From Ornithinimicrobium sp. CNJ-824 (GTDB taxonomy: Bacteria > Actinomycetota > Actinomycetes > Actinomycetales > Dermatophilaceae), in NCBI RefSeq assembly GCF_001942405.1, contig NZ_MKKA01000044.1, positions 62,001 through 126,000 of the forward strand: DNA of 64,000 bases, read 5' to 3'. Numbering within the stretch: position 1 is the first letter of the stretch; every line of letters begins with the position of its first letter. A program made the translations under genes and the position numbers. Below are positions 998 through 48,029 of the stretch, piece by piece. Under the pieces are notes generated by a model, which searched no databases, was not told where the DNA came from, and worked only from the letters and a program-made list of their open reading frames with translations.

Positions 998-1057
998 CCA
1001 GCCCGAACCCACCCCTGCCCGTCCCGTCCGCCCCCTCGCCCCAGAGAGGCCTGTCCC

Positions 1058-3351: not shown

Positions 3352-3372
3352 GGCGGTTCCGCGGGGCGGACC

Positions 3373-4917: not shown

Positions 4918-4949
4918 GGGTCAGGACTCACGGCGGGGGCTCTCCTCGG

Positions 4950-5951
4950 TCAGGGGGCGGCGGTCGAGGCACGCTCGACCAGCCGGGTCTGCAGGCGGGC
5001 GTGCACCTGCTCGGGCTGCCGCGCGGCCATCATCGTCAGCAGCATGTCCAGGGCGGTGCGACCCATCTCGCGCAGCGGCTGGGCGACGGTGGTCAGCGGC
5101 GGCTCCGTCAGCGCGGACTCCGGCACGTTGTCGAAGCCGACGACCGACAGGTCCTGCGGCACGCGCAGCCCGAGGGACCCGGCGACCTCGATGGTCCGGA
5201 TCGCCATGAGGTCGTTGGCGGCGAAGACCGCGCTCGGCCGGTCGCGGCGGTCCAGGAGCAGCCGGGCCGGGGCGACGGCCGAGTCGGCGCGGTAGGACCC
5301 GGTGGCCAGCAGGGTCTCGTCGACCTCCAGCCCCGCGGCCGCCATCGCCTGCCGGAACCCCTGCTCGCGCAGCCGGGCCGACTCCAGGTCCTCCCGGCCG
5401 CGGATCATGCCGATCCGGGTGTGCCCCAGGTCGATGAGGTGCTGCACGGCGGACCGGGCACCGCCCACGTTGTCCGAGTCGACGGTGGGCACGTCGCTGC
5501 TGCCGGTGTGCGGGTCGATCGCGACGACCGGCACCGCGCTGCCCGGCTCGATGACCGTGGGGGTGACGATGATCGCCCCGTCCAGCAGGGTCCCGCCCAA
5601 GCGCCGCAGCGACCGCCGCTCCCAGCCGACCGTCTCCCCGTGGGTGGCGCCGGCGAAGGCGAGCAGCTCGTAGCCGGTGTCCGCCATGGCGTCCGAGACG
5701 CCCTTGAGCAGCTCGGTGCTGAACGGCTCGAACTCGGCCACCAGCACCCCCAGGATCCCGGTGCGCGAGCTGCGCAGGCTGCGGGCCCCCAGGCTGGTCT
5801 CGTAGCCGAGCTCGGCGATGACCCCGTGGACCCGGGCGGTCGTGGCGGCGGCGACACCGTAGCGGCCGTTGACCACCTTGGAGACGGTCGCCACCGAGAC
5901 CCCGGCCGCCCGTGCGACGTCCTCCATGCGGACCCGGCCGTTGGTCACCAT
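4950..5951 (-). CDS. LacI-family transcriptional regulator
   Basis: The protein has 333 residues. The LacI helix-turn-helix is at the very N-terminus (RMEDVARAAGVSVATVSKVV), followed by a periplasmic-binding-protein-like sensor domain ending in the family segment VVGFDNVPESALTEPPLTTV. The start at 5,951 gives the canonical N-terminus; the open frame extends upstream without conserved sequence. Its position between abfA and the xylanase gene, on the same strand, suggests it represses the hemicellulose genes and is released by a xylo- or arabino-sugar. The ligand cannot be read from the sequence. Confidence 0.9.
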   Translation of the reverse strand: MVTNGRVRMEDVARAAGVSVATVSKVVNGRYGVAAATTARVHGVIAELGYETSLGARSLRSSRTGILGVLVAEFEPFSTELLKGVSDAMADTGYELLAFAGATHGETVGWERRSLRRLGGTLLDGAIIVTPTVIEPGSAVPVVAIDPHTGSSDVPTVDSDNVGGARSAVQHLIDLGHTRIGMIRGREDLESARLREQGFRQAMAAAGLEVDETLLATGSYRADSAVAPARLLLDRRDRPSAVFAANDLMAIRTIEVAGSLGLRVPQDLSVVGFDNVPESALTEPPLTTVAQPLREMGRTALDMLLTMMAARQPEQVHARLQTRLVERASTAAP

Positions 5952-31684: not shown

Positions 31685-32149
31685 TCAACTGCGGCGAGTG
31701 GGTTTACCGTCTGCGACCGGGGCGGACGACGTGGTCAGGACGTCGGAGGCCTGCTGGGTCTTCCAGTTGTCGTGGTGGCGCTGTGCCAAGAGGAAGGCCA
31801 CGTCGGCCTTCTTGACCAGCCTGTAGAGCCCGATGCAAAGCGCCAGGACGCCCGCCAGCTCCATCAGCGCAGCCAGAACGAACCATCCGGTGCCGTCGCT
31901 GTCGGAATACATGGTCGAGGTCAGCATCGTGTTGAAGCCGACTACGAAAGGAATCGCCGCCCCCATCACGAGACCAAGACCCCAGCCCACAAGACCGGCT
32001 GCGGGGGCAGATGACGCCCAAGATGCACCTCCGGGGCAGGGTTCCCCCACCTTGGTGTCGTGCGTCATGGGTTTGCCGTCGCTCCCCACGGGCACCTGCT
32101 GCATGCAGGCGGGACAGGTCTTCGTTTTCGTAGCGGTCGTCGTGGTCAA
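31685..32149 (-). CDS. Small membrane protein with an N-terminal Cys pair
   Basis: The protein has 154 residues. The N-terminus carries TCPACMQQVPVGSDGKPMTHDTKVGEPCPGG, a Cys-x-x-Cys plus downstream His/Cys arrangement like a small zinc ribbon, followed by two hydrophobic helices. The TTG start at 32,149 is chosen because GAGGAG lies six bases upstream; no ATG/GTG fits as well. Function unknown. It follows the EVE-HNH/MazG pair on the same strand, after a gap of about 115 bp, and may be the next gene of that unit. Confidence 0.55.
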   Translation of the reverse strand: MTTTTATKTKTCPACMQQVPVGSDGKPMTHDTKVGEPCPGGASWASSAPAAGLVGWGLGLVMGAAIPFVVGFNTMLTSTMYSDSDGTGWFVLAALMELAGVLALCIGLYRLVKKADVAFLLAQRHHDNWKTQQASDVLTTSSAPVADGKPTRRS

Positions 32150-32264
32150 GTCTGCTCCTCGAGTTGCGGCCAGGCCCGTGATGCGGGCGCCGCGCAATGA
32201 CACCACACGTCGCCCGCCCGCTCCACCCCAACAGTGCCCCCTGACGCCTGCGAAGCTCCGTCTG

Positions 32265-32579
32265 TTACCCGGAGGTCGGGAATCGCATTTTGTTCCGTCT
32301 AAACTTCCTGGCCACTTCATCGTCAAGCTGCACGCCGAGGACGTCAGTGAGTCGAAGAAGGTAGATGGCGATGTCGGCCAACTCGTCCCGGACTGCGTCT
32401 GCACTCTCACCGGACATCACCTGCAGCGACTCCTCAGGCGTCAGCCATTGAAAGATCTCCAGCAACTCGGAGGCCTCGACGGACAGCGCCATGGCGAGGT
32501 TCTTCGGTGTGTGGAACTGCAACCAGTCCCGTTCCTCGGCGAAAGTGCGCAGCTGCTCCTGCCAGTGCTCGACGTTCAT
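32265..32579 (-). CDS. MazG-like nucleotide pyrophosphohydrolase
   Basis: The protein has 104 residues, an all-alpha NTP pyrophosphatase of the MazG/dCTPase type. Metal ligands follow the family rule: VEASELLE (Glu35 and Glu38) and DELADIA (Glu66 and Asp69). It would hydrolyse a (d)NTP, possibly a damaged or modified one, to the monophosphate. The ATG at 32,579 overlaps the stop of the EVE-HNH gene (ATGA), so the two are translationally coupled, which suggests a joint job in nucleotide or phage-DNA surveillance. Confidence 0.85.
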   Translation of the reverse strand: MNVEHWQEQLRTFAEERDWLQFHTPKNLAMALSVEASELLEIFQWLTPEESLQVMSGESADAVRDELADIAIYLLRLTDVLGVQLDDEVARKFRRNKMRFPTSG

Positions 32580-33445
32580 CGCCCCAGCCAATCAGCGCAG
32601 TCCTCGTTGTGCTTGGTCAGAGCTTCGCGGGCGGGCTGCTCGTCCAGAGTCGACGGTACCGTGAGGACAGTGCCGGCGAGGGCTTCATACTCAGTGCCCT
32701 GCAGCGCGGGGGAGACACGCACCAGGAGGCTGTCCGCCTCAACGGTCAGGAGGAAGAGGTCGAAGAGGGTATGGAGGTCGGCGCGCAGGAGCAGGCCGTT
32801 CCAGACCTCGTTGGTCTGCTCGCCCTTGTGCGGCCAGATGTGGGCGGCCTCCAGCACCGACTCAACTGCGGTCCCGGTGATCGCGCACCGTCCCTCGTAG
32901 GCACTCAGGAGTGCTCCGCGGAACCGCGGCTGTCCCTGCCGAAGTGCCACCATCTGTACGCGGCGGACACGGAGATCCTCATCCATGTTGTCGAAGATCC
33001 TCTCCCGTTGCGCGTCGTTCAGTGAGCGCTGGGGATTCGGGTCACCACCGAGGTAGTCGTCCAGGATCGCCTGCTGCTCCGGCTTGAGCTTCCGGACGAA
33101 CGTGGGGTTCTTGCTCAGGCCGGTCGCTGCGGCGACGTCGTGCCAGCGAGGCTGCTCGCCCGCCTCGCCGGCGAGGACCTCGAGGGGGAATCGCTGGACG
33201 TACGGCTTGTCCTCGGCCCCAGGCCAGTCGTCCCACGGCCCCGGAGTGACCTGTTCCGCGTCGATCTCATAGGCATCCCGGAGCGCACGCACCTTGCCGA
33301 GGAGCGACGCCCCGCTCTGCCAGTAGTAGACGACGTCACCGGCCTTGATCCCGCGCGGGGTGATCAGGTCCCAGAGACCGTGCTCCTTCGCGTACTCCCA
33401 GTGCTGGGGGTAGTCCTTGCTGATCGTCAGCAGCCATGCCGCCAC
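32576..33445 (-). CDS. EVE-HNH modification-dependent endonuclease (type IV-like)
   Basis: The protein has 289 residues. Residues 1 to about 150 form an EVE domain (YWQSGASLLGKVRALRDAY), a base-flipping reader of modified cytosine. The C-terminal part is an HNH nuclease: Cys187 in GRCAITG, His202 in AAHIWPHK, Asn217 in VWNGLLL and His225 in DLHTLFD. EVE-HNH fusions are known as restriction enzymes of modified DNA (for example VcaM4I). The GTG start at 33,445 gives the EVE strand at once (AAWLLTIS). Expected target: 5-methyl- or hydroxymethylcytosine-containing DNA. Confidence 0.87.
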   Translation of the reverse strand: MAAWLLTISKDYPQHWEYAKEHGLWDLITPRGIKAGDVVYYWQSGASLLGKVRALRDAYEIDAEQVTPGPWDDWPGAEDKPYVQRFPLEVLAGEAGEQPRWHDVAAATGLSKNPTFVRKLKPEQQAILDDYLGGDPNPQRSLNDAQRERIFDNMDEDLRVRRVQMVALRQGQPRFRGALLSAYEGRCAITGTAVESVLEAAHIWPHKGEQTNEVWNGLLLRADLHTLFDLFLLTVEADSLLVRVSPALQGTEYEALAGTVLTVPSTLDEQPAREALTKHNEDCADWLGR

Positions 33446-33529
33446 GGCATGCGCCTTCCGTGCTCATCACGGGGGAGGCGTGTCCTTCACTGGAAGCCTG
33501 TCGATCCGTCGGTGTGTGGTTGTGGTCAT

Positions 33530-33546
33530 GGGCGGCTGGGCCGCCC
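33530..33546 (-). terminator. Hairpin after the DUF2075 relic
   Basis: GGGCGGC-TGG-GCCGCCC, a perfect 7-bp stem with a 3-base loop, follows the minus-strand stop at 33,548 by one base, and lies in the gap before the EVE-HNH start. Confidence 0.5.
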
Positions 33547-33547
33547 G

Positions 33548-35226
33548 CTACCTGCGGAGCAGGCTCCGGAGGAAGTCCCTTGTTTGCGGATCGGTCGAGT
33601 AGATCCAGGCGCTGCGCATCCCGCGCGTCAGCAGCACCTTGTAGACGTTGCGCACCAGCCGGTCGAAGTCGCGGTCCGACACCTTCGTGCGGTTGCGCAG
33701 CACCGGGTCGCGGTTTCCCTCCCGCACGGCCCGTCACGCCCCGTCACGCCACACCAGGTCGGGCCCGAGGATGATCCCCGCGTGGTCGTACTCGAAGCCC
33801 TGCGCCGTGTAGATGCACCCCACCTGCCCGAATCCCGCAGTCCGTCGCCCACAGCGCGGCAGCCGGCGCGCCGCCGACTGAGCGGTCGCCCTTGAGGTTC
33901 CACGGCCGTGACCAGTCCCCGATCCGCACGTCCTGCACGAGCGTTCCGTCCGGCTCGGGGTCCGACCACGGCCAGCAGTAGCCGGCCGCCATACGAGCCG
34001 TGTAGCCGTCCTCCTGCCGCAGCGCCAGCACGTGCTCCAGCTCGTCGGGGGAGTCGAGGACGCCCACCTCGAAGGCAGGATCACCGCCCCACCGGATCGG
34101 GCCACCGGGCGCCAGCCCCAGCAGCCGCTCGACCCACTCGACATACAGCGCCGAACCACCGCAGCGGAACTGGTCGTCGAGATCGATCTCGTGCACGTCC
34201 ATGCCCAGCGACTCGGCATACTCCGTGATCGCCTGGACCGTCCCCATCTCCCCGGGCCGCACGACCTGGTTCTGATCGAGCAGGAAGACCGGCACCAGCG
34301 CGGCGCTGAGCAGCTCGTCGAGCTGCGGGCGACCCGTCCGGTGCTCCTTGCGGGTGTAGCGCGACTCCGACGTCTCCCGGATGCGGTGCGCCTCGTCGAG
34401 GATGAGGCACTCCAGCTCGTTGGGCTCGGCCGCCATGCAACTGTTGAAGTAGCTAACATCTTGCGCACCCGCGGCGCCCGCGCGGCAGCCACCTTGCGCA
34501 GGGTCTTGGTGAACGACTGCGAGCCGGTCGCATGCATGACGGCGCGCCCCTGCCGGGACAGCTCGCCCATCACAGACAGGGCGATGACGCTCTTGCCGCT
34601 CCCCGGTCCGCCGCTGACGACGATCGCCGTCTTGGTGGTGCCCCGCCGCGCCTTCTCGACCGCGTGCAGCACCAGCTCGTAGGCGTCGCGCTGCTCGTCG
34701 AGCAGGACGAACTGCTCACGCCGCTGCACCTCGTCCGCTGCCAGTGCCAGCAGCTGCTTGGAGGGGGCGATGCGGCTGCTCAGCAGCCGGTCCGCATACC
34801 CCGCTCCGGGCACCCCGGGGGCGAAACGGCTCTTGAGGAAATCGACGAACTCACCCCGGTCCCGCCCGCTGAACATCCGCGCCGGCCTCGGGGTGTCGGG
34901 GACGGCCATGCCCCTCAGGTCTGCGATGCCCAGGCTGGTGGCGTTGTGCAGGTATGCCGTGCCGGCGAGCTCGTGCTCGTCCTCGGCCTACGTGACGAAA
35001 GAAGTTAGTGAGGTAGTGGCAGCAACCGTGGCGCCTGCTCCAGCGGGTGGTAGCCGTAGCCGCCGATCCGCACCCGCACGTCGCTGTCCTCGAAGCGCTT
35101 CGCCTCGCTCCACTGCTTGAGCTCGACGACGAGGTATGACGAACGCCCGGTCTGGGGGTGCTGCCGGCGCTGCACACCCTCGCAGGAGATCCACCCAGGT
35201 CGATGACAGATCACCGTCATCGCCAA
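33548..35226 (-). pseudogene. DUF2075 DNA/RNA helicase, decayed
   Basis: Pieces in several frames make up one DUF2075 protein: an N-terminal nuclease-like segment (SYLVVELKQWSEAKRF), Walker A (GGPGSGKSVIAL), DEAH (CLILDEAHRIRE) and the C-terminal YTAQGFEYDHAG with YKVLLTRGMRS. Breaks include a TAC-to-TAG stop (about 34,988), a TGG-to-TGA stop (33,734), a missing base near 34,445, two missing bases near 33,835 and more indels near 35,015. The in-frame reading past the TGA to 33,548 shows these are substitutions. Relatives are found in many defence islands. It is probably inactive. Confidence 0.8.
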
Positions 35227-35344
35227 GCAAGGCGCCCTGCCTCACGTTGACTCCCCGGCAGCCAGCCGCGCGTGGCACCCATCTCTCGGCCACACCCGGC
35301 TAAACCCAACTCAAGCCGACGTCCACCTGTATCGTCGGCAGTGC

Positions 35345-35361
35345 TGGCCCGGCCCGGGCCA
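35345..35361. promoter_or_regulatory. 17-bp near-perfect palindrome before the HTH gene
   Basis: TGGCCCGGCCCGGGCCA differs from its reverse complement only at the centre. It ends 19 bp before the GTG of the HTH gene, close to where its promoter should be, and could be its own operator. Confidence 0.4.
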
Positions 35362-35379
35362 GACCGAGGAAGGACCAAC

Positions 35380-35568
35380 GTGGCTGAGCAGTGGCTGTCC
35401 GCAGACGACATCGCGGCCCACCTCGGGGTCACTAAAGATACCGTCTACACCTGGATCGCCGAGAAGGCCATGCCAGCCCACAAGGTCGGGCGCCTCTGGA
35501 AGTTCCAAGCCAGCGAGGTCGACGAATGGGTGCGCCGAGGCGGCGCGGCGGGAGAAGCCGCTCCGTGA
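35380..35568 (+). CDS. Excisionase-type HTH protein at the head of the BREX locus
   Basis: The protein has 62 residues, a single MerR-like winged helix of the excisionase family: LSADDIAAHLGVTKDTVYTW, then HKVGRLWKFQASEVDEWV. Such small proteins occur both as excisionases of mobile elements and as putative regulators in defence loci. It is 96 bp upstream of brxA on the same strand. The GTG start is behind GAGGAAGG. Whether it regulates BREX or is a relic of the element that brought it is open. Confidence 0.85.
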   Translation: MAEQWLSADDIAAHLGVTKDTVYTWIAEKAMPAHKVGRLWKFQASEVDEWVRRGGAAGEAAP

Positions 35569-35664
35569 AGCTCAAGTGTCGGATGCTCCTGCTGCAATGA
35601 GGCCCGCGACGGAATCCATCTCAGAGCAGAGTCAGAATTCAGCGCTCTGGACGCTTGACGCGAT

Positions 35665-36450
35665 GTGCGTGTATGGAAGGTGAACAACCGAGAGATGACG
35701 AGTTCTCGTATCACTGGGGGTGACTTCACCCTCGGCACGTTGCGGACGACCGCAAGCCACACGATCGGCATTCCCCATCTGGTGGAGCTTCTGCGCGAGG
35801 TGCCGTCTGATGCGTCCGCCGAGCAGTACAGCGAGGCGGTAATCGAGGGCAACGTCCTTGGCCGCCCGACGCAGACCGGTCGGCAGCGGTCGTTCCGTCA
35901 CCTGCGCGAGTTGTACTTCTTGGACCCGAACCGCCCGGAGTTCACCGCGATGCGGCATTACTGGGACATCGACCCCGTGTCGCATCCCCTCCTTGCGGGG
36001 TTGCTGGCCTTTACCCGCGACGAGGTGCTCCGCGCTTCCTTCGCGGCGATCGCGGATCTTCCCGCGGGATCGAGCGTGACATCAGCGAACCTCACCGCAG
36101 CGGTCGCGGCGCAGTTCGGCGACGAGATGTCCGAGTCGACTCTCGGGAAGACCGGCCGCAACACCGGTGCCTGCTGGACCCAGACGGGCCATCTGGCGGG
36201 CCGCGCCAAGAAGGTGCGCACAGAGGTGGAGGCCCGCCCGGCCGTCATCGCCTATGCGGCGTACCTCGGGCACCTCGCTGGGGGCCGTGGCCTCGGCGTC
36301 CTCGATAATCCGTGGTCGCAGATTTTGGGGCTCGCTCCCGGGCGCACCTTGGAGGCGCTGCGCGACGCGCACACCCAGGGCATCCTCGACCTCCTCGTCG
36401 CGGGCAACGTGGTTGATGTGACCTTCCCAGCTCTCGGTGGTGGCGCATGA
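35665..36450 (+). CDS. brxA: BREX protein BrxA (DUF1819)
   Basis: The protein has 261 residues. The DUF1819 pattern is seen at the N-terminus (SSRITGGDFTLGTLRTTASH) and along an all-helical body. BrxA is a DNA-binding protein and the usual first gene of type 1 BREX. The GTG at 35,665 gives 10 extra residues; the ATG at 35,695, just before the conserved part, is an equally good start. Its stop overlaps brxB (ATGA). The following gene order brxB-brxC-pglX-pglZ-brxL confirms the name. Confidence 0.9.
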   Translation: MRVWKVNNREMTSSRITGGDFTLGTLRTTASHTIGIPHLVELLREVPSDASAEQYSEAVIEGNVLGRPTQTGRQRSFRHLRELYFLDPNRPEFTAMRHYWDIDPVSHPLLAGLLAFTRDEVLRASFAAIADLPAGSSVTSANLTAAVAAQFGDEMSESTLGKTGRNTGACWTQTGHLAGRAKKVRTEVEARPAVIAYAAYLGHLAGGRGLGVLDNPWSQILGLAPGRTLEALRDAHTQGILDLLVAGNVVDVTFPALGGGA

Positions 36451-37004
36451 GCCGCGTCTCTGATCTCGTCGATGCCTACAGGGCCGAGTTGACCTTGACG
36501 TGGAAGGACAACGTCTCGGGCGGCGAGCGGGTCTGGATGCTTGTCTATCCGCCGGACCTCGAACGCCAGATCCGGCACGCGCTCCCGAGTATGGAGTTGG
36601 CAACCACCCAGGCCGCTCGCGGCTGGGTCATCGTCGACGTCACCGACGACTTCGGTCGCTGGCTGTCGTCGCACCGGCACGCTGAGGCGTTCTACGAAGA
36701 GCCGAGCGACCTCACGCAGTCGATCCTCGACCAGTTTGAGATGACTCTGGTCACCCGCATTCGTGACGCGCTCAACGCGGCTCCCGGGAATGCCGTTGTG
36801 GCGCTCGTCGGCATCGGCTCGATCTTCCCGTTCTTGCGGGCATCGAGCGTGATCAAGTCTGTCGATTCCGCGGTGACGGGCCGCCTCCTCGTGCTCTTCC
36901 CCGGGCTTCACGACCCGGAGACTCATTCATTCCGCTTGCTCGACGCGCGTGACGGGTTCAACTACCGCGCTCGTGTCCTCGATCCGCAGAAGGACCTTAC
37001 GTGA
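36447..37004 (+). CDS. brxB: BREX protein BrxB (DUF1788)
   Basis: The protein has 185 residues, a DUF1788 protein: RVWMLVYPPDLERQIRHALP early, and VALVGIGSIFPFLRASSVI with LLVLFPGLHDPETHSFRLLDARDGFNYRA at the end, both typical. In type 1 BREX it is an essential component, probably a structural partner of BrxC/PglX. The start overlaps the brxA stop and its stop overlaps the GTG of brxC, so the three are co-translated. Confidence 0.92.
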   Translation: MSRVSDLVDAYRAELTLTWKDNVSGGERVWMLVYPPDLERQIRHALPSMELATTQAARGWVIVDVTDDFGRWLSSHRHAEAFYEEPSDLTQSILDQFEMTLVTRIRDALNAAPGNAVVALVGIGSIFPFLRASSVIKSVDSAVTGRLLVLFPGLHDPETHSFRLLDARDGFNYRARVLDPQKDLT

Positions 37005-40000
37005 CTACCAACAACGACCTTTTCGTCCGGCCACCGCTGAGCTTCGAGATCCCGAACGACGGTGTTACCAATGTCGACCGGCCTGAAGATTCCAACCAGT
37101 GGGATGTCCTCAAGTACGAACTGGAGAGCTTCGTTTGTGAGGGCGAGTACGAGCACGGCCTCCAGCGCATTCTCGACTCCTACATCGGGCACCGCAACCG
37201 CACGACGCAGCCTGCCGTGTGGGTCTCGGGCTTCTACGGCAGCGGGAAGTCCCACCTGGTCCGCGTTCTCCAGCACCTGTGGGCCGACACCAAGTTCCCG
37301 AACGGGGCAACCGCAAGGGGTTTGACGAATGTCCCGCAGGGCATCCAGGACCAGCTCACGGAACTGACGACGCTCGGCCGTCGGGACGGTGCCGCGCCGT
37401 GGGCGGCTGCGGGTGCGCTTGACCGTAGCGGTGACACCCTCAACTCGGTGTTCCTCTCCATCATCCTTGGGGCGGCGGGACTGCCCACCCGCGTCGCGCC
37501 CGCCCAAGTGGCTCTGTGGCTAGCGGACAACGGACACCTTGACGCCGTCCGTGACCACATCACCTCCAACGGTGGTGACCTTGTCGAAGAGCTGGGCGAG
37601 TACAACCTCAGCAAGCTTCTCGCCAACGCGGTTCTCGCCTCCGAGCCTGACTTCGCCGCATCGGCCAGGGATGTGCGTGCCGCGCTCCGCAGCCAGTTCC
37701 CGCCGGACACGCGTTCGTTCTCCACGGACGAGACGATCGTGTTGCTCAAGAAGATTCTGGAGTATGTCGGTGATGGCCAGGTTCCGCCGTCGCTGATCGT
37801 CCTCGATAGGTGCAGCAGTACATCAGCGGCGACGACGGGCGGGCGATGGAGGTGCAGAACCTTGTCGAGTCAGTGTCGCGGGAACTGAACGGCCGTGTGT
37901 TGCTCGTGGCCACCGGCCAGCAAGAGCTGACTGCCGATTCGACCCTCCAGAAGATCCAGGATCGCTTCACCGTCAAGGTTGTTCTCAAGAACCAGGACGT
38001 CGACGCCGTCGTTCGGCGTGTGCTCTTGAGCAAGGAGCCTGCAAAGAAGCCCGGTCTCGACAGCACCTTGTCCTCGGTCGCGGGGCAGATTTCCCGGCAG
38101 CTCATCGGAAGCAAGATCCAGCACACCGCGGCCGACGACAAGAATCTCGCCGAAGACTACCCGCTGCTTCCGGTGCGGCGTCGGTTCTGGGAGAGCGTGC
38201 TCCGTCAGGCCGACGCCGGCCGTGCCGGTCAGTTGCGCTCCCAGCTCCGCATCGTGCACGAAGCCAACCGCAAGGTCGCGCCGAACGCTGTGGGGACCGT
38301 GGTCGGGGCGGACTTCCTCTACTCCCAGAAGAACGAGGACCTCAACGGCGCTGGCCTGCTCCTCAAAGAGACGCAGACGCTGATCCATGAGCAGGGGGAG
38401 AAGGACTCCCTGCGCGGCCGCATCCTCGGCCTCATCCATCTCATCGGTTTGCTCCCGACATCTGGCCACGGCGACATCGGCGTGCGGGCGACTGCGGACC
38501 ACCTCGTCGACCTGCTCGTCGAGAATCTCGACCATGATGGCGACCGGCTGCGGCAGCAGGTGCCCGCCGTGCTCGAAGCACTCGCCGAGGAGGGCGTCGT
38601 TCAGCAAGACGGCGAGGAATTCCGTCTGCAGACCAAGGCGGGCCGCGAGTGGGACGAGGCGTTCCGCAGGCACCATGCGCAGGTGACCGACAGCGAGATG
38701 AGCATCGAGCGCGACTCGCTGCTGCTGGGAGAGATCCGCCGAGCCCTGCCCGTGAGTATCCAGCAGGGTCGTGCGAAGGAGTCGCGCAAACTCTCTCTCC
38801 ACGCTGACGCCTCACTCCCGCCCGACTCTGACGCGATCCCGGTGTGGCTCCGTTCCGAGTGGGACGAAGGGATCACGGCGAAGCAGTTCACCGAGGCCGC
38901 CCGCAGCCTCGGCGTCGACTCGCCGATCGTCCTCGTCCACCTGCCTCGCCTTCAGGCCCCGGCGTTCGCCGCAGCGGTCCGCAACAAGATCGCCGCACAG
39001 CGAGTGATGGACCAGCAAGGAATCCCCCAGGACGACGAGGGCAAGCAGGCCCGAAGCGCAATGCAGACCCGCCTCAACCGTGCGACGGAGCAGGTTAACG
39101 CCCACGTCCGTGACGTGATCTCCAAGGCCAGCGTGCTCCTCGGCGGGGGTACCCCTCCGAACGGGGTCACTCTGCGCGAGCGCATTGAACTCGGAGCCCA
39201 GGACGCCGCTACTCGCCTGTTCTCGCGGTTCTCTGACGCTGACGACGACCGCTGGCCCCAGGTAATCGCACGTGTAAGAAGCGGATCGGCGGTCGACGCC
39301 CTCAAGGCGGTTCAACACGACGCCGACCCCGAGCAGCACCGTGTCGTCAAGCAGGTGCTCGGCTATGTCGGCCCGGCTGGCACACCCGCGAGCGAGGTTG
39401 AGAAGGCCGTCACCTCGCCGCCGCTCGGCTGGCCGCGGGACGCGCTAATGGCTTCGCTCGGGGTGCTCCTCGACACCGGGGTCATCCGAGCGACGCTCAA
39501 CGGCAGCGACGCGACGACGGCCGACGTGCTCAAGCAGACTCGCCTCGGCAACGTGCAGCTCCGCCGCGAGGTCACCGTCCTCAAGCCCGCCGAAAAGATT
39601 CAGGCACGGCAACTGCTGAGCAGCCTTGGGTTCCCGACCGACAACGACGGACTTGCTTCGGCCGCCGAACAGGCGGTGAAGTCGCTTGTCGACCGCGCGA
39701 AGGGCGTGAGTGGACCTGCCCCGCTCGCGGACATCACCGTGCCGAGCGGCATCCAGGTGATCGTGAGCACGTCTGGCAACGACCGCGTGCACGCCCTGCT
39801 GGCCGCGAAGAGTGAGCTCACGAACTTCAACGACCAGCTCGGGGACCTGGAACGGCGGCTCAAGATGCGGACGTCGTCGCTTGATCTGGCACGTTCGCTC
39901 GCAACGTCAGCCGCGGAGCTGGAGCCCGCGTCGGCGGCCCGCGACCGGCTTGAGACGCTGGCCGTAAGCCGCGACCTCCTCGCCGACGCCGACCCTGTCG

Positions 40001-40458
40001 CCCCGATCGTCAAGGACCTCGCCAGCGCACTCAGAGATGCTATCCACCGCTCGGCAGTTGCATTGCGCGATGCCCGCGCGGCGGCTACCGCAAGCCTCGA
40101 ACAGCAGCCCGCATGGATGGCTCTCGACGAGGCGCAGCGCGAGGCGCTCCTGACGGAACACCGCCTCGGTGCCGAGTCCGAGCCCGACCTCGCCGATCCG
40201 TCGGCCGTTCTGAAGGCTGTTCAGACCCGGCCGCTCCAGGGATGGACTGCCGAGCTCGATGCCATCCCGCAGCGAGCCTCTCGGGTGTTGGAGGCGGCCA
40301 TTCAGCTCACGACGCCTGCTGCAAAGACGACCACGGTGAGGGTCCCGACGGCGAGCTTGAGCCGTGCGGACGAGGTCGAGAGCTACATCGACGCTCTGCG
40401 AACTCAGCTCCTCGACGCCTTGAGCAGCGGCAACGACACCATCGTGGTGAGGGGTTGA
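37001..40458 (+). CDS. brxC: BREX ATPase BrxC (DUF6079 type), one frameshift
   Basis: About 1,152 residues once one G is restored at about 37,809 (CTCGATGAGGTG written CTCGATAGGTG). Walker A is SGFYGSGKSHLVRVLQHLW (from about residue 77). The Walker B segment LIVLDEVQQYIS is exactly where the break lies. BrxC is the large P-loop ATPase required for both methylation and exclusion in BREX. The start is a GTG overlapping brxB. If the break is real, the ATPase would stop after about 295 residues and the system would be dead. Confidence 0.88.
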
Positions 40459-40460
40459 CC

Positions 40461-43400
40461 ATGGCGACGGCACCGACCACGGTCCTGAACTCCGATCAGC
40501 GGCGGTTCCTCGACACCCAGACTCAGCGTGCGCGCGCGGCGGCGCAGCGTGCGGCCGAGGATGCCCTCCGCGCCCTCGCTGTCGCAGAGCCGAGCCGTCC
40601 GGGCTACCTGAATGACGAACAGAACAAGTTGCGCCTCGCGTTGCGCGACAAGGCGCGGCAGCTCGGCGACGACACGTCACGAACGGGCGTGCCGCTCACC
40701 AACCTCATTCATGACGTGGCCTACGAGCAGTGGCATCGGTTGCTGTTCGCCCGGTTTTTGGAGGTTAACGACCTCTTGCGGCACCCGCAGTACCGCGACA
40801 TCCCGCTCTCCATGGAGGACTGCGGCGATCTCGCTTCCGACCTTGGCGAGCCGGACGCTTGGGCTGTTGCTGGACGGTTCGCGTCGGAGATTCTGCCCGG
40901 CGTGTTCCGCCTGACCGATCCCGCGGTGCAGGTGCGATTCGCAGCCGAACACCGCAACGCCTTGGAGCGCCTTCTCCTGGAAATACCCAGCGAGGTCTTC
41001 ACGACTGAGGACGCGCTGGGTTGGGTGTATCAGTTCTGGCAGACGGCCGAGAAGAAGCGTGTCAACGACTCGGGCGTGAAGATTGGCGGGGCCGACCTCT
41101 CGCCCGTCACGCAATTGTTCACTGAGAACTACATGGTGCGGTTCTTACTGGAGAACTCACTTGGAGCGTGGTGGGTTGCCCGCCACCCTGACTCGTCGCT
41201 CCGTGACGGCTGGGAGTACCTGCGTGTCAATGAGGACGGCACGCCGGCCGCGGGCACATTTAGTGAATGGCCCGATCGCGCCAGCGATGTGACGATGATG
41301 GACCCCTGCTGCGGCTCCGGGCATTTCCTCGTCGCCATGTTCGGCATGCTCTGGCGCATGCGCGCTGAAGAGGACAGTCTCACGCCGGCCGAGGCGCAGG
41401 ACGCGGTCCTGCGCGACAACCTCCACGGCCTCGAACTCGACCCACGCTGCACCCAGCTCGCGACCTTCAACGTCGCCCTCGAGGCATGGAAGCAGGGCGG
41501 TTTCCGCGAACTCCCCGCTCCGCAAATCGCGTGCTCCGGTGTACCCGTTCGCGCGGCTCGTCAGGACTGGGAGTCGCTCGCGGGCGACGATGACGATCTT
41601 CGGCGAGCTATGCGTGGCTTGCACTCACTCTTCCAGAACGCTGAGGGTTTAGGGTCTCTTATCGACCCGCGACGTGCAGAGAATGGAGACGGACTGTTCG
41701 GGCGTGATCTCACCGTCGGGGTATCTGCGGAACGAGTGCGTGGCCTACTCGCGACGGCACTCAGAGAAGAGAACCGAGACACGACCGTTCTCGGTCATGC
41801 GGCCAACGACGTCATGCACGCGGCCGACCTGCTTGGTCGGAATTACACGCTGGTCGCTACTAACCCCCCGTATCTCGGTACGCAACGGATGGACGAGGCC
41901 GCGGCCCAGTTCATCGCTGACCGGTTTCCACGATCGAGCTCGGAACTTGCCACGGCAATGCTTGAGCGGTACCTCCCAGAAGGGGCCGGCACCATCGCGG
42001 CCGTCATGCCGATGAACTGGCTCTTTCTAAAGTCTTTCAACTCACTGCGCATCTACCTACTTGACCAAGCCGGTTGGAACGCCGTCGCCCCACTTGGAAA
42101 AGGTGCATTCCAGACAATAACTGGTCAGGTCGTGCAGCCTGCATTAGTGCTGCTCTCCACGCGTCGCCCTCGAGAGATGTTGTTTGTCGATGCTCGCCAG
42201 GCGACGTCAGTCGAAGCCAAGGCGGAAGCGCTAAGGGCCGCCAAGATTGAACTGCCTGCCTTTGACCAGGTTCGGCAGAACCCGGGTTCGATTCTCGACG
42301 CAAGCGCGTTTGGGAAGAGCCTATTGTCGAACTACGCCACCAGCTGGCAAGGGCTGGTGACGATGGACACGTCCCAGTACGTATTGCGCTTCTGGGAAAC
42401 CAGTGGGGACCCCGCTGTGTGGGAGCGCTACGTTACAGCGCCATCCAAAACAGGTGCCAGCACTGGACGGCAGTATTTCCTCCGCTGGGAATCTGGGCGG
42501 GGCCGGCTCCAGTCGTCGAATGCACACAACTTCAACCCTCCCTCTGTACTCGGAAAGAGGGGTGTGCTCGTGGGTCAGTCGAGCCTTCGAGTCACTCTGT
42601 ACAATGGCGAGATGTTCAACGACGCTTCGGCGCCAGTAATCCCAATCAACCCTGACGACTTGGGTGCGGTATGGCAATATTTGCAGTCTTCTGAGTACGT
42701 CCAGGCGGTTCGTCGTTTGAACTCGAAGGTCGTGGTGAATCCGGGCTATCTCATCAGGGTGCCGTTCGATCGTGAGCGCTGGCGGCAGGTAGCTGAAGAC
42801 GCGGGCGCCGTAATTGCGAACGCTACCGGTGACCCTACGCAATGGTCGTTCCACGGGAAAGTGGTCGGTTCTGACCATCCGCTGCAAGTTGCAGTGGCGC
42901 GACTTCTCGGATACGGATGGCCTGATCAGATAGAGGATGACTTGGATTCCCTCGTGGACCGCGATGGCGTAGCTGCATTGGTGGCTCTCCCAGGTGAGCC
43001 TGACCTCTCCACGCGACTCCGCGAAGTCCTCAGCGTTGCGTACGGCGAGGAGTGGTCGGGGGCCACTGAGAGAAGGCTGGTGGCCGATGCGGGCGGCAAG
43101 AACGGACGGCTCGAAGACTGGCTCCGCGACTCGTTCTTCGTCCAGCACGTCAAAGTGTTCGACAATCGACCGTTCCTGTGGCACATCTGGGACGGTCGCA
43201 AGGACGGGTTCTCGGCGATCGTCAATTTTCACAAGCTCAATCGGCGCACGTTAGAGAAGCTGACCTTCACTTCTCTCGGTGCGTGGATCGATCGACAAAA
43301 GCACGAGGCCCGCGCCGAGCGTGCCGGGGCCGATGCGCGTCTCGCCGCTGCTGAGGCCCTCCAGCACAGGCTCAAGCTCATTCTCGAAGGGGCACCGCCG

Positions 43401-43646
43401 TACGACATTTACGTGCGGTGGAAGCGCATGGCCGAGCAGCCGATCGGGTGGGAGCCCGACCGCGACGATGGCGTCCGCCTCAACATCCGACCGTTCGTAA
43501 CTGCTGATCTGCTCCGGTCGAAGGTCAACGTTCACTGGAGGAGAGATCGTGGGAAGAACCCCGATGGGTCCGAACGGCACAACGATCTGCACCCCACTCT
43601 TGAAGAGCGCCGTGCTGCCAGGCGCGAGGCGGAGGCTGCTGAATGA
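40461..43646 (+). CDS. pglX: BREX adenine-specific DNA methyltransferase PglX
   Basis: The protein has 1,061 residues, full length and unbroken. Motif I is DPCCGSGHFL (about residues 281-290) and the N6-adenine motif IV is NPPY (about 468-471, VATNPPYLG). PglX methylates the BREX site on host DNA and also supplies recognition for exclusion. The ATG at 40,461 follows the brxC stop by two bases and starts a helical N-terminus. Coding between about 42,000 and 43,100 looks more AT-rich than the flanks, which fits an exchanged target-recognition region. The recognition site cannot be read from the sequence. Confidence 0.95.
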   Translation: MATAPTTVLNSDQRRFLDTQTQRARAAAQRAAEDALRALAVAEPSRPGYLNDEQNKLRLALRDKARQLGDDTSRTGVPLTNLIHDVAYEQWHRLLFARFLEVNDLLRHPQYRDIPLSMEDCGDLASDLGEPDAWAVAGRFASEILPGVFRLTDPAVQVRFAAEHRNALERLLLEIPSEVFTTEDALGWVYQFWQTAEKKRVNDSGVKIGGADLSPVTQLFTENYMVRFLLENSLGAWWVARHPDSSLRDGWEYLRVNEDGTPAAGTFSEWPDRASDVTMMDPCCGSGHFLVAMFGMLWRMRAEEDSLTPAEAQDAVLRDNLHGLELDPRCTQLATFNVALEAWKQGGFRELPAPQIACSGVPVRAARQDWESLAGDDDDLRRAMRGLHSLFQNAEGLGSLIDPRRAENGDGLFGRDLTVGVSAERVRGLLATALREENRDTTVLGHAANDVMHAADLLGRNYTLVATNPPYLGTQRMDEAAAQFIADRFPRSSSELATAMLERYLPEGAGTIAAVMPMNWLFLKSFNSLRIYLLDQAGWNAVAPLGKGAFQTITGQVVQPALVLLSTRRPREMLFVDARQATSVEAKAEALRAAKIELPAFDQVRQNPGSILDASAFGKSLLSNYATSWQGLVTMDTSQYVLRFWETSGDPAVWERYVTAPSKTGASTGRQYFLRWESGRGRLQSSNAHNFNPPSVLGKRGVLVGQSSLRVTLYNGEMFNDASAPVIPINPDDLGAVWQYLQSSEYVQAVRRLNSKVVVNPGYLIRVPFDRERWRQVAEDAGAVIANATGDPTQWSFHGKVVGSDHPLQVAVARLLGYGWPDQIEDDLDSLVDRDGVAALVALPGEPDLSTRLREVLSVAYGEEWSGATERRLVADAGGKNGRLEDWLRDSFFVQHVKVFDNRPFLWHIWDGRKDGFSAIVNFHKLNRRTLEKLTFTSLGAWIDRQKHEARAERAGADARLAAAEALQHRLKLILEGAPPYDIYVRWKRMAEQPIGWEPDRDDGVRLNIRPFVTADLLRSKVNVHWRRDRGKNPDGSERHNDLHPTLEERRAARREAEAAE

Positions 43647-45975
43647 CGCTCGTCCGTGCCTTCGTCGCCAAAGCACTCCGTGACGCCGCCGCCTTCAACG
43701 CGGGCGCGAACTCGCGCCCGCCGCCGTGCTCTGGTCCGACCCCGGTTACGCCTGGGCACCCGTGATTCGCAGCCTCCAGGAGGCAGTTCCCATCCTCGTT
43801 CTCGGTGAGTACGACCCCGCAATCGCCCAAGGCCCGGCCCTCTGGCTTCGAGCTGTGCTCGCTGCGCCAGATGTAGCAGAATTGCCACCTCATCTCGCCG
43901 AGCGCGATGAGCGCAACCCGTGGGTCATCTACCTGCCCGGCATCAACCGAGGTTCCGTCGCCGAGGCCTCCACGCTCGACGACTCGCTCGCACCGCTCGC
44001 AGACATCACAATTCGCTCCAACTGGTGGCCCTCCGCCCTCGGGCAGACTCCGTGGACGCCGCACTCGTTCCTGGCATCCAAGCAGGGTGCCGGGCTCGAC
44101 CTCGCCAGTGACGCCGCAACCAAGGCCGCCCTTGGGGAGGTGCTCGACAAGCTTCTTCTGGAAGACGTCGATGACTTGAAGCGCAAGGGGAGGCTCGACT
44201 CCTCTCGACTGCGGCATCTCGTCCTCAACGACCACGTCCGTACCCTCCTCGACTGGATGGACGATCCCGAAGTCACGCGCGTCTCGCTGACCGGCGTGCG
44301 GTGGAAGGCACTTATCGCTTCCTGCCAGGACACCTACGGGTTCAGCCCGGAGAAGGACGGCGCGCTCACCGCGGCAAGCAAGCTCGGAAGCCGCGCCGGA
44401 GAGTGGAACGCAGTCTGGCAGCGGTTCGCCGAGAACCCCGCGCGTTATCCGAACATCCCTGGCCTCCTCGACCAGGCCCGTCCCTCGGTCGTGCCGCTCT
44501 TCGGAGACACCGACCCCCACCCCGACTCCTGGCCCTCGTGGAACCGGGATCAGGAAGAATCGTTGCGGGCTGCCCTCGGCGCCCTTGCGACGTATCAAGA
44601 CCCGCGCGGCCGGATCGTGGAACTCGCTGCCGCACATGCGATGCGGGAAGAGAACGTATGGGCCGCGCTTGGGCAGGCTCCGCTCGCACGCGCCGTCGGA
44701 CACCTTGCCGAACTGGCCGATCGCGTTGCGACCGCGTCGTCCGCGTCAGACCTCAAGGCGCAGGTCAGGTGGTATGGCGATGAAGGGCACCTGATCGACG
44801 ATCTTGCATTGCGGGCCATCGCGTCGGCGAAGACTGCACAAGACCGGACCGCGGTCGCAGCGGCGCTCGGGACGCTCTACGACTCCTGGGTGGACGAGTC
44901 AGCGCGGTCGTTCCAGAAGGCCGCGGTAGCTGGATACGCCGGAGAAACGGGCCTGGCCGTCGAAGCGGGTACCGCCGTCGTCTACGTCGATGCGCTGCGC
45001 TTCGACCTAGCCACACGCGTGGCTCGGCGATTGTCGCCGCTCGTCGCCACCGTTGATACGCGGCTGGCCGCATTCCCCAGCGTCACCCCGACCGGGCAGC
45101 CGGCGGTCGCTCCCATCGCGATCACCGCGGGTGGCGGCGCAGCCTTCGACGCCGCAGACGATCAAGGCCGCTCCCTCACGGGCTCAGTCCTGCGCTCGGC
45201 GCTCGCAAGTGCGAACGTCCAGTTCCTGGAATGGGACGCCGCAGACATCGGAGACCCGACCGGCAGGGCGTGGACGCAAACCAACTCGATCGACTCACTC
45301 GGCCACTCCCACGGGCATGCTCTCGCCGACCTCGTCGACCAGCAGCTCGACCTCGTCGCCGAACGCGTACGTGGGCTTATCGATGCAGGTTGGCGGAAGG
45401 TCGTCATAGTTACCGACCATGGGTTCCTCCTGCCCGGCCTAGCAGCGCAGAAGGTGACCCTGCCGTTGCAGGTCACCGAGGGTGACGCGGCCCGCAAGCC
45501 TCGTGTCGCGCGCTTGAAGGCGGCCGCGGCGCGGCCGGATTTCCCCATTCTGCCGTGGACCTGGGATTCGTCGGTCGAAATGGTGAGCGCCCCGGGAAGC
45601 GCGGCATTCGAGGCAGGCCGTCTGTACGAGCACGGCGGACTGAGTCTGCAAGAGTGTCTAGTCCCCGTCGTCACGGTCACGCCTGGTGACTCCCTCGTGG
45701 CTCCGGTGCAGATCGAGGGCGTCCGGTGGACCGGGCAGCGATGCCGCGTCGACTACGGGCCCACCGAGGCCGAAATCGTCGCTGAGATTCGGCTCCGACC
45801 TGCCGACGCGTCGAGCGTCGTGGGCGGCCCAAGGCCACCCGCCGAACCCGGTGAGGTCAAGGTGCTCGTTGATGAAGAACAGGCCCCTGCTGGGGCGACC
45901 GCCTGGGTCGTGTTGCTGGATGAGAACGGCGGGGTTCTCGCCCAGACGCAAACGACGGTGGGAGGTACCGCATGA
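43643..45975 (+). CDS. pglZ: BREX PglZ protein, alkaline-phosphatase fold (one frameshift)
   Basis: About 777 residues if one base is restored near 43,708 (GCG?AACTCGCG region), joining MTLVRAFVAKALRDAAAFNAGA to LAPAAVLWSDPGY. The PglZ metal-hydrolase core is visible: VVYVDALRFDLATRVA and later VIVTDHGFLLPG. PglZ proteins are a constant BREX component and some have nuclease or phosphodiesterase activity. The ATG overlaps the pglX stop (ATGA) and the gene ends overlapping brxL. Confidence 0.9.
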
Positions 45976-48029
45976 CCGAGGCAATCACGCTCGATGAGAT
46001 CGACGAGACCGCGGCTTCGGCGTTCGAGGGATACGTCGTCCGCAAGGACCTCGCCCTGCAGTTCAAGGGCGCATATCCCGTTCCGACGTACGTCGGCGAG
46101 TTCCTCATCGGCCGCTATTGTGCTACGACGGACCCTGAAGAGATCGAGGAGGGGCTCCAGGTTGTGAGGCGGCTCCTCGCCGACCGCACCGTGCGGGCAG
46201 GCGAGGAGGAGTTGTTCAAGTCGCGTGCTCGTGAGCGCATGACCGTCAAGCTCATCGACCTCGTCAAGGCCCGTCTCGACGCGAAGTCGAACGCTTACGT
46301 CGCCGAGCTGCCCAGTCTTAGGCTCCGGGACGTCCGCATCGACGACGCCGTCGTCCGCGACAACGAGCGCATGCTCACCGGCGGCTTCTACGCTGAGGTC
46401 GACCTGTATTACGACGCCGCGATCGCCGACGAGAACAACGGCAAGCCCTTCGCTATCGGGTCGCTGCGGCCCATCCAACTGTCGACCCGCGATTCGCTCT
46501 CGCGGCTCGCCGAAGGTCGCTCACGATTCACGACCGAGCAGTGGAAACATCTTCTGCTTCGGTCGGTGGGCTTTGAACCCGCGCAGCTCAGCGAGCGCGA
46601 ACAGGACGTGCTGCTGCTGCGCATGGTTCCCTTCGTGCAGCGGAACTTCAACATGGTCGAACTGGGTCCGCGCGGCACCGGAAAGTCGCACCTATTCCAA
46701 CAGGTATCACCGTATGCGCATCTGATCTCGGGCGGTAAGGCCACGGTGGCGCGGATGTTCGTCAACAATGCGACGGGCCAGCGCGGCCTCGTCGCGCAAT
46801 ACGACGTTGTGTGCTTCGACGAGGTGTCCGGTGTCTCCTTCGATCAGAAGGATGGCGTCAACATCATGAAAGGTTACATGGAGTCGGGCGAGTTCTCCCG
46901 GGGGCGCGAGTCCATACGCGCCGACGGCTCGATCGTCCTTGTTGGCAACTTTGACGTGGACGTCGCTCACCAGCAGCGCATTGGGCATTTGCTGTCGCCC
47001 TTGCCGCCGGAGATGCGCGATGACACGGCGTTCATGGATCGCATTCACGCTTACCTGCCCGGCTGGGACGTCCCGAAACTCAACCCGACCTACTTCACTC
47101 ACCACTTCGGGCTTGTCAGCGACTTCCTGTCTGAGTGCTGCTCGCGCCTTCGTGACCAATCGCGCCTCGCGTCGATCCAGGGGCGGGTCAACTACTCCGA
47201 CGCCCTCTCAGGACGAGACCTCTCAGCCGTCAATAAGACGGTAGACGGCCTGCTGAAGCTCCTGTATCCCGACGCCGAAGGCGCGATCTCCGACGAGGAC
47301 CTCGAATGGGCCGTTCAGATCGCCTTGGAATGCCGGCGTCGCGTCAAGGAGCAGCAGCGCCGCATCGGCGCGGCGGAGTTTCGCAACACCCAGTTCGGCT
47401 ACCGCCTGGGGGAGGGAGTCGAACAGTTCGTCTCGACTCCCGAACTAGCAAGCCCCGACTCGATCAGCCTCGATCCGCTGCCTCCCGGCCAGGTGTGGGC
47501 AATCTCCGAGAGCAGCGACGACGTGGGTCCCGGGCTTTATCGGATCGAGGCAGCGGACACGCCCGGCTCAGGTGCACGCGGGCTGCTCAACCAGGCAGCA
47601 CCCGCAACGCTGCGCGAGAGCTTCAAGGTCGCCGAACAGAACCTCATCGCCCAGGCGCGACAGCTAGTGGGTGACCGTGATCCCCGTGAGCACAACCTCA
47701 CCGCCCAGATCCGCGCGCTCGACGCGGCCAAGACCGGCGCCGGCCTCGGGCTTCCGATTCTGCTGGCCCTCGCCTCCGCAATGCTTCAACGGTCGGCACG
47801 CGGTGGCCTGATCGCCGTCGGTAATCTCTCGCTGGGTGGCGGCGTCGAGACGGTTCTCAACGCTGCGCAGCTCGCGGAGCACGCCATGGAAAAGGGCGCT
47901 ACGGCGCTGCTGCTGCCGGTGTCCGCGCGCCGCCAGCTCCTCGACGTCAGCGACGAGGTCGCCACGAAGGTGTCATTCATTTTCTACAGCGACGCCCAGG
48001 ACGCTCTCGTGAAGGCGTTGGATGAATGA
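45972..48029 (+). CDS. brxL: BREX BrxL, AAA+/Lon-like protein
   Basis: The protein has 685 residues, unbroken. Walker A is GPRGTGKSH (from about residue 232), and CFDEVSGVSF is the Walker B region. The C-terminal domain resembles the Lon protease domain (DAAKTGAGLGLPILLALASAML, then KGATALLLPVS), but a Ser at the usual catalytic place is not evident. BrxL is required for phage exclusion but not methylation and marks type 1 BREX. The start overlaps the pglZ stop (ATGA). Confidence 0.93.
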   Translation: MTEAITLDEIDETAASAFEGYVVRKDLALQFKGAYPVPTYVGEFLIGRYCATTDPEEIEEGLQVVRRLLADRTVRAGEEELFKSRARERMTVKLIDLVKARLDAKSNAYVAELPSLRLRDVRIDDAVVRDNERMLTGGFYAEVDLYYDAAIADENNGKPFAIGSLRPIQLSTRDSLSRLAEGRSRFTTEQWKHLLLRSVGFEPAQLSEREQDVLLLRMVPFVQRNFNMVELGPRGTGKSHLFQQVSPYAHLISGGKATVARMFVNNATGQRGLVAQYDVVCFDEVSGVSFDQKDGVNIMKGYMESGEFSRGRESIRADGSIVLVGNFDVDVAHQQRIGHLLSPLPPEMRDDTAFMDRIHAYLPGWDVPKLNPTYFTHHFGLVSDFLSECCSRLRDQSRLASIQGRVNYSDALSGRDLSAVNKTVDGLLKLLYPDAEGAISDEDLEWAVQIALECRRRVKEQQRRIGAAEFRNTQFGYRLGEGVEQFVSTPELASPDSISLDPLPPGQVWAISESSDDVGPGLYRIEAADTPGSGARGLLNQAAPATLRESFKVAEQNLIAQARQLVGDRDPREHNLTAQIRALDAAKTGAGLGLPILLALASAMLQRSARGGLIAVGNLSLGGGVETVLNAAQLAEHAMEKGATALLLPVSARRQLLDVSDEVATKVSFIFYSDAQDALVKALDE

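Follow-up and report, generated by a model that had tools for sequence, protein, structure and literature searches.

An EVE-HNH nuclease gene overlapping a MazG-like hydrolase gene in Ornithinimicrobium sp. CNJ-824, and its association with DUF2075

Described relatives and layout of the locus

VcaM4I is an EVE-HNH modification-dependent restriction endonuclease that reads 5mC and 5hmC (PMC7897488), and its base-pocket residues are P24, W82 and Y130. That article does not discuss gene partners of the enzyme (PMC7897488). For the hydrolase encoded beside the nuclease studied here, the closest described enzyme is DCTPP1/RS21-C6 (dCTP pyrophosphatase 1), an all-alpha NTP pyrophosphohydrolase that acts on 5-methyl-dCTP and has a pocket formed by H38, W47, E63, E66, W73, E95, D98 and Y102, with W47 and W73 contacting the 5-methyl group according to docking (PMC4491611). 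Hydrolases of 5-methyl-dCTP of both the MutT and the DCTPP1 kind have been cited, namely Orf135 of E. coli and mammalian RS21-C6 and DCTPP1, and there are reports of phage kinases acting on 5-methyl-dCMP and 5-hydroxymethyl-dCMP (PMC10742078). Streptococcus offers a parallel for a modification-dependent restriction enzyme encoded next to a pyrophosphohydrolase of nucleotides, since a figure legend places MutT homologues next to SauUSI homologues (PMC7641849); the nuclease and the hydrolase fold are both different from those described below, and the article mentions neither DUF2075 nor MazG. Candidate systems with a MazG pyrophosphohydrolase domain are among those predicted to be defensive by DefensePredictor, none of them experimentally validated according to the authors, and DUF2075 and EVE do not appear in the text of that article (PMC13092281). 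In the open-licence literature, judged by titles and the beginnings of abstracts and therefore as weak evidence, no description of MazG with EVE-HNH or with DUF2075 was recognized, and a search of open-licence full texts for DUF2075 with phage defense found nothing. To our knowledge, modification-dependent nucleases have no partner methyltransferase, and how the host tolerates them and what their accessory genes do is largely an open question.

The window, a stretch of 64,000 nucleotides, comes from an assembly of 3.4 Mb in 62 contigs that is 92.5% complete. On its minus strand lie the gene for an EVE-HNH nuclease of 289 aa with a GTG start (32576..33445), recognized by its open frame, profile, structure model and conserved residues, and the gene for a MazG-like (DCTPP1-type) nucleoside triphosphate pyrophosphohydrolase of 104 aa (32265..32579). 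The nuclease stop codon TGA (32578-32576) and the MazG start codon ATG (32579-32577) share the tetranucleotide ATGA (32576..32579, minus strand), an overlap also found in the Ornithinimicrobium pekingense locus (L112). The ATG at 32579 is the likely start of MazG; a TTG at 32591 gives merely the longest open frame. The preliminary description had named both genes and their ATGA overlap, and this holds: both frames are open, and profiles, structure model and catalytic residues agree with the two assignments. It had missed a third gene, a broken DUF2075 gene upstream on the same strand (33554..35169, minus), which comprises a PD-(D/E)XK-like segment and an SLFN-g3 helicase and is intact in relatives. 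No Rfam match was obtained between 30000 and 38000 of the window. Abutting the truncated end of DUF2075 is a BREX type 1-like locus (35272-48029, plus strand) with an HTH protein (MAD1-like), BrxA, BrxB, BrxC, PglX, PglZ and BrxL, in which a frame change near 37.8 kb of the window seemingly splits brxC.

The nuclease matches HNH_2 (PF13391) with an E-value of 2.5e-14, above the curated cut-off, and has no Pfam EVE match at E 0.1. Since folding from the single sequence gave an unusable result (pLDDT 38), an AlphaFold2 model built from a 30-row alignment was used instead (mean pLDDT 84.8, pTM 0.51). This model consists of an EVE/PUA-type reader at about residues 1-133, a helical linker and an HNH domain at about residues 168-289. 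VIA-align superimposed model residues 1-133 on the EVE protein PH1033 (Z 14.4, rmsd 1.9, 121 residues) and residues 168-289 on TagI (Z 14.0), with YTH and ASCH proteins, which belong to the PUA superfamily too, ranking next for the N-terminus at Z about 12. As judged from the model, EVE is the best PUA-superfamily match of the reader, although other PUA matches exist. A 12-row profile of the nuclease aligns with the HNH part of VcaM4I (6yex, E 3.1e-10) and, at the N-terminus, with PH1033 (E 0.02). VcaM4I, with the same two-domain architecture, is also the top Foldseek match of the model (E 4.1e-12, 18% identity in the Foldseek alignment), ahead of EVE, YTH and ASCH proteins, but the whole chains fit poorly (TM 0.37, rmsd 14), so that the domains match while their relative placement differs, and the domain placement in the model is provisional. 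The HNH triad H202, N216 and H225 is invariant in 30/30 rows, and W71 and Y82 are invariant in the 12/12 rows of the smaller alignment. The protein thus combines two features of EVE-HNH enzymes, an N-terminal EVE/PUA-superfamily reader fold and a C-terminal HNH domain with an intact triad, and by analogy it may read the same modified bases as VcaM4I. Among the matches listed, its closest named homologue is that of O. pekingense (91% identity; dN/dS 0.15 against L112), followed by Serinicoccus (81%). Plasmid records yielded 81 matches, none across more than 80% of the nuclease length.

The hydrolase matches MazG-like PF12643 (E 5.6e-14, 52.6 bits against a curated cut-off of 27), and among solved structures it comes nearest to 4qgp (E 4.4e-22) and to RS21-C6/DCTPP1 (E 6.6e-16 to 3.6e-14). 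The ExxE...ExxD metal site is present as E35xxE38 and E66xxD69. All seven DCTPP1 pocket residues that could be aligned are kept, with W19, E35, E38, W45, E66, D69 and Y73 corresponding to W47, E63, E66, W73, E95, D98 and Y102; the position of DCTPP1 His38 falls outside the alignment. These seven residues are invariant in 41/41 DUF2075-linked MazGs and equally kept in 5/5 unlinked ones, and are therefore family traits, which mark a DCTPP1-type enzyme but do not point to a special adaptation. The kept pocket tryptophans are compatible with, and no proof of, a predicted activity on dCTP or C5-modified dCTP. Unlike DCTPP1, the protein is bacterial, only about 104 aa long and encoded in an operon with a nuclease, and its specificity is likened to that of DCTPP1 from sequence. 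Coding constraint is also evident here, with a dN/dS of 0.23 against L112 (protein identity 77%).

DUF2075 (Pfam SLFN-g3 helicase) lies directly upstream of the nuclease and is split over several frames, two of which match PF09848 (E 1e-39 and 4.5e-20). Compared with the intact L112 copy, with which it shares 92% DNA identity where the two align, it lacks about 80 N-terminal codons and carries 10 indels, 9 of them out of frame, whereas no indels separate the intact L112 and L113 copies. The neighboring EVE-HNH and MazG genes served as a control stretch and differ from L112 by four gaps, two of which are not a multiple of three, with both frames open. The codons of the window's DUF2075 still give a dN/dS of 0.17. 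Across 45 homologues, D77, E96-x-K98, Walker A and DEAH are kept in 90% of the sequences or more, a pattern which we take to be that of a PD-(D/E)XK nuclease with a superfamily 1 helicase after it; the 5' truncation has removed D77 from the window's copy. With this truncation and the out-of-frame indels, the gene is not intact in this assembly. Homology is lost abruptly at 35169, on the side of BREX, which probably reflects a real truncation. Same-strand frame switches, a count that takes in ordinary overlapping genes too, number 6.9 per 10 kb in the window vs 2.0-4.2 in the loci of seven relatives; their density may be due to indel errors of the assembly, and the DUF2075 indels may in part have the same origin. 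A search of 32000-35700 found no sigma-70-like promoter, a weak test in a GC-rich genome, and DUF2075 had no match in the PDB at E 0.01.

Conservation and gene orders

Matches to the nuclease at a threshold of E 1e-10 were found in 42 of the 396 genomes sampled from the order, 12 of them, including the window's own genome, over the full length. DUF2075 is the next gene in 12/12 of these genomes, and MazG lies within 5 kb in 5/12. A scan of 84,980 species genomes, from which the best 80 of 559 HNH relatives were taken, yielded at least 15 EVE-HNH loci, all with DUF2075 within 3 kb; the EVE assignment rests on a full-length match for L112-L122, L134, L142 and L147, and on comparison of profiles for L188. 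Among the matches listed, MazG is present in 8 of these 15 loci, in addition to an edge fragment in L115. Together with seven loci from the order (L063-L066, L068, L069, L072), and with four further order genomes being the same contigs as species-scan loci, they form a set of 22 loci other than the window. Among the matches listed, DUF2075 is found within 3 kb in 22/22, with no gene between it and the nuclease in 17/22. MazG is present in just 10/22; the other 12 have none among the matches listed, except for the edge fragment in L115, and this counts against the explanation that we favor below. The pair named in the preliminary description recurs, but a free-standing two-gene system is not supported in Actinomycetota.

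Three gene orders are seen. The window, L112 and L118 have DUF2075, EVE-HNH and MazG on one strand, with the nuclease-MazG junction formed by ATGA in L112 as in the window and by a 28-nt gap in L118. MazG is divergent from DUF2075 followed by EVE-HNH in L114/L062, L117/L067, L068 and L069. In the remaining order, represented by L134, L142, L147 and L188, DUF2075 is divergent from MazG followed by EVE-HNH, and MazG sits between DUF2075 and the nuclease; the L147 copy of MazG contains an in-frame stop. The occurrence of three orders argues for selection on co-location.

Several loci show decay or insertion. In the Serinicoccus locus L113, MazG is reduced to a 61-nt remnant beside the nuclease, and no match to MazG was found elsewhere in that genome at E 1e-4. 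DUF2075 is split in L119. Another gene stands between DUF2075 and the nuclease in L115, from Rhodococcus jostii, where DUF2075 (799-5174) is interrupted by about 2.5 kb and has further frame changes. L028 may be an exception to the DUF2075 association; it encodes a distant HNH protein whose N-terminus resembles EVE weakly (probability 72.5, or about 73, over 57 columns), and its flanks of 1.5 kb contain no DUF2075 and no MazG. L149, which matches over residues 6-289 at 31% identity and has no DUF2075 or MazG, was rejected as an EVE-HNH locus, its N-terminus grouping with non-EVE proteins.

MazG also accompanies HNH nucleases with other N-terminal parts. We surveyed 118 HNH loci totaling 1.38 Mb, 66 of them genomic and 52 taken from viral contigs, of which only L188 has an EVE domain; 114 of the remaining 117 have none, and the N-termini of L294, L295 and L297 are too short. 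Compared with the EVE profile by groups, the larger ones by subset, 7/8 groups were negative and L188 alone was positive; one by one (n=136), L188 scored 98.75 and L028 gave its weak match. MazG occurs in 5/117 of these other loci (L131, L174, L271, L282, L291), always as the adjacent gene and never elsewhere in the flanks, and this recurrence extends the nuclease-MazG pairing to other kinds of HNH protein. The five nucleases have three kinds of N-terminal part, one shared by L174 and L291, one by L271 and L282, and one in L131, none with an EVE-profile match. The nuclease precedes MazG in L174 and L291, with a 2-nt gap and (frames read by eye) an ATGA overlap respectively, and follows it in L131, L271 and L282, the last two with a gap of 3 nt. 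The largest N-terminal group of HNH proteins has no MazG in 55 loci, which suggests that the MazG link depends on the reader. Within the Caulobacter order, MazG and a full-length L131-type nuclease were found in the same 2/200 genomes, adjacent and with a 1-nt overlap (TGATG) in both, and 11 further genomes match the nuclease in its HNH part only. The preliminary description had let its proposal depend on adjacency in other genomes, and adjacency is conserved: with the EVE-HNH nuclease in L112 and L118, with other readers in these five loci, and with the same overlap in the second Caulobacter-order genome.

A contig of a viral collection with 51% GC (L271, 4014-7206) carries MazG, an HNH nuclease and DUF2075 in a row, which makes a fourth gene order; its DUF2075 was found by a profile search, a single-sequence query having found no relative in viral contigs. 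In the Caulobacter order, the operon of MazG and HNH nuclease (L131, 6880-8408, and L233, 1480-2984) has no DUF2075 in the stretch examined and keeps TGATG.

Neighbors of DUF2075

Of 85 DUF2075 places in the order, 55 have MazG at a distance of no more than 5 kb: 21/48 in the clade of the window and 34/37 in a distant DUF2075 clade. This count of places used 19/44 nuclease matches, with the 25 weakest, HNH-core-only matches left out, and 1/3 DUF2075 fragments of the window's own genome, and one of the MazGs that it includes is 4 kb away (G263); N-termini are known for the order's nuclease matches that have a locus (30/44). At the 73 places where DUF2075 is without EVE-HNH, MazG is within 5 kb at 50, indicating that MazG and EVE-HNH vary independently beside DUF2075. 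Within the window's clade alone, MazG accompanies DUF2075 just as often when EVE-HNH is missing (16/36) as when it is present (5/12; Fisher p = 1), which again speaks against a free-standing pair. On a 49-row tree the MazG and EVE-HNH labels, with 11 and 10 changes, are uncorrelated; the loci of this tree were partly chosen for having EVE-HNH, and its labels count L188 as lacking EVE (the domain was found later) and the L115 edge fragment as MazG. In a phylum sample of 188 genomes, which shares G034 and G001 with the order sample, 16 other genomes have a clear DUF2075, and in 5 of them MazG is no more than 5 kb away from it. Gene content suggests that in Actinomycetota DUF2075 is a hub, with MazG and EVE-HNH as two accessories.

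In the distant clade (L211-L231), MazG is nearly always adjacent to DUF2075 and often overlaps it, and the surroundings are varied. The two genes overlap in 14/20 loci examined; in this 20-locus set the MazG of L219 was missed by the gene caller and found by the earlier search. A SauUSI-type protein occurs in just 2/21 loci of the clade, and an EVE-HNH-profile match in none of 20. Since SauUSI is rare and EVE-HNH absent in the loci examined there, modification-dependent restriction is not the only reason for the presence of MazG in this clade, and its DUF2075 and MazG are a candidate two-gene unit of their own.

Other restriction enzymes share the company of DUF2075. One DUF2075 locus (L193, 3108-6218) encodes a SauUSI-type type IV restriction enzyme, for which PADLOC mREase_IV gave 1188 bits, a score that covers the L193 protein only. 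Strong relatives of it, by tblastn or phmmer, are encoded in the DUF2075 loci L198, L206, L207, L188 and L225, at a distance from DUF2075 of 2.8 kb in L207 and 5.2 kb in L188. L211 and L119 give partial matches, at about 34-35% identity along the helicase part, and the proteins concerned could be other helicases. EVE-HNH occurs together with a SauUSI-type match in L188 and, counting the partial match, in L119. The possibility that the genes are BREX type 1 accessories was considered and rejected, as tblastn with the window's BREX proteins (E 1e-4) gave no match in the best 80 of 559 HNH loci with flanks of up to 8 kb; this absence among the matches listed makes BREX a casual neighbor.

Possible roles and competing explanations

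We favor, with a probability of roughly 0.4, the reading that the pair in the window is the tail, still intact, of a modification-dependent (type IV-like) restriction module of three genes in which MazG keeps modified dCTP low. The genes of this putative module would be the DUF2075 helicase-nuclease, the EVE-HNH nuclease and MazG, and among relatives the pair often belongs to this recurring cluster. The EVE domain would flip out and bind a C5-modified cytosine in incoming phage DNA, an HNH dimer would cut the modified DNA, and DUF2075, where intact, would translocate on and degrade the cut DNA. MazG may hydrolyze modified dCTP, and perhaps dCTP, made by the phage or freed by salvage of degraded modified DNA. 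It would thereby prevent the modified base from entering the host chromosome, which could otherwise become a target of the host's own nuclease, and it would starve the phage of precursor.

The strongest competing explanation, one that comes close in our estimate, is that MazG partners DUF2075 in a two-gene unit of its own, for example as a dNTP-depleting effector, with EVE-HNH a separate restriction enzyme traveling in the same island. The frequency of MazG within 5 kb of DUF2075 in the order (55/85) and above all in the distant clade (34/37), the overlapping genes in 14/20 loci, the 5/16 other DUF2075 genomes of the phylum sample and the lack of correlation between MazG and EVE-HNH are what this explanation predicts, and it accounts for the distant clade better than the three-gene module does. 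It fares worse with the pairs that have no DUF2075: MazG abuts HNH nucleases without DUF2075 in the stretch examined in L131, L174, L282 and L291, and also in G591 (L233, of which the stretch is only 4.2 kb), and these are better explained by the favored module. The presence of DUF2075 within 3 kb in all 22 EVE-HNH loci among the matches listed is also too tight for casual co-travel. DUF2075 with MazG is itself a candidate defense unit.

It is improbable that the strain's locus no longer works because the loss of DUF2075 has killed the module and recently orphaned EVE-HNH and MazG. The missing 80 or so first codons, the 9/10 out-of-frame indels against a copy that is 92% identical, the absence of indels between the intact L112 and L113 copies and the negative promoter search in 32000-35700, weak as this test is in a GC-rich genome, would fit such a loss. 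EVE-HNH and MazG are nevertheless open and show dN/dS values of 0.15 and 0.23, the DUF2075 codons are still at 0.17, and with frame switches dense and brxC also split, the indels may partly be assembly errors. Least probable of all, and very unlikely, is a chance clustering in a defense island next to BREX with MazG as an ordinary housekeeping enzyme. BREX does abut the genes, and ATGA overlaps are common in bacteria; against this stand the three gene orders, the conserved overlap, the recurrence in other lineages, the invariable adjacency of MazG in five other HNH loci, and the casual nature of BREX itself as a neighbor, with no match among the best 80 of 559 HNH loci.

A wider version of the favored module is more doubtful. 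Bacteria might repeatedly equip modified-DNA nucleases with a dCTP-analogue hydrolase as a chemical guard, with DUF2075 as a hub for interchangeable reader-nucleases (EVE-HNH, SauUSI-type) and the guard. If so, a nuclease without a matching methyltransferase could be kept safely, its host being protected in the nucleotide pool and not on the DNA. Conservation of a nucleotide-pool enzyme next to such nucleases predicts that its substrate is the triphosphate of the base read by the neighboring nuclease, in which case each such hydrolase neighbor would be a clue to a nuclease target.

Downstream of DUF2075 in a genus relative (L192) is a gene for a protein of 394 aa, which was considered as a swapped partner and set aside as it had no Pfam or PADLOC match; read by eye, the protein has a lipoprotein-like start.
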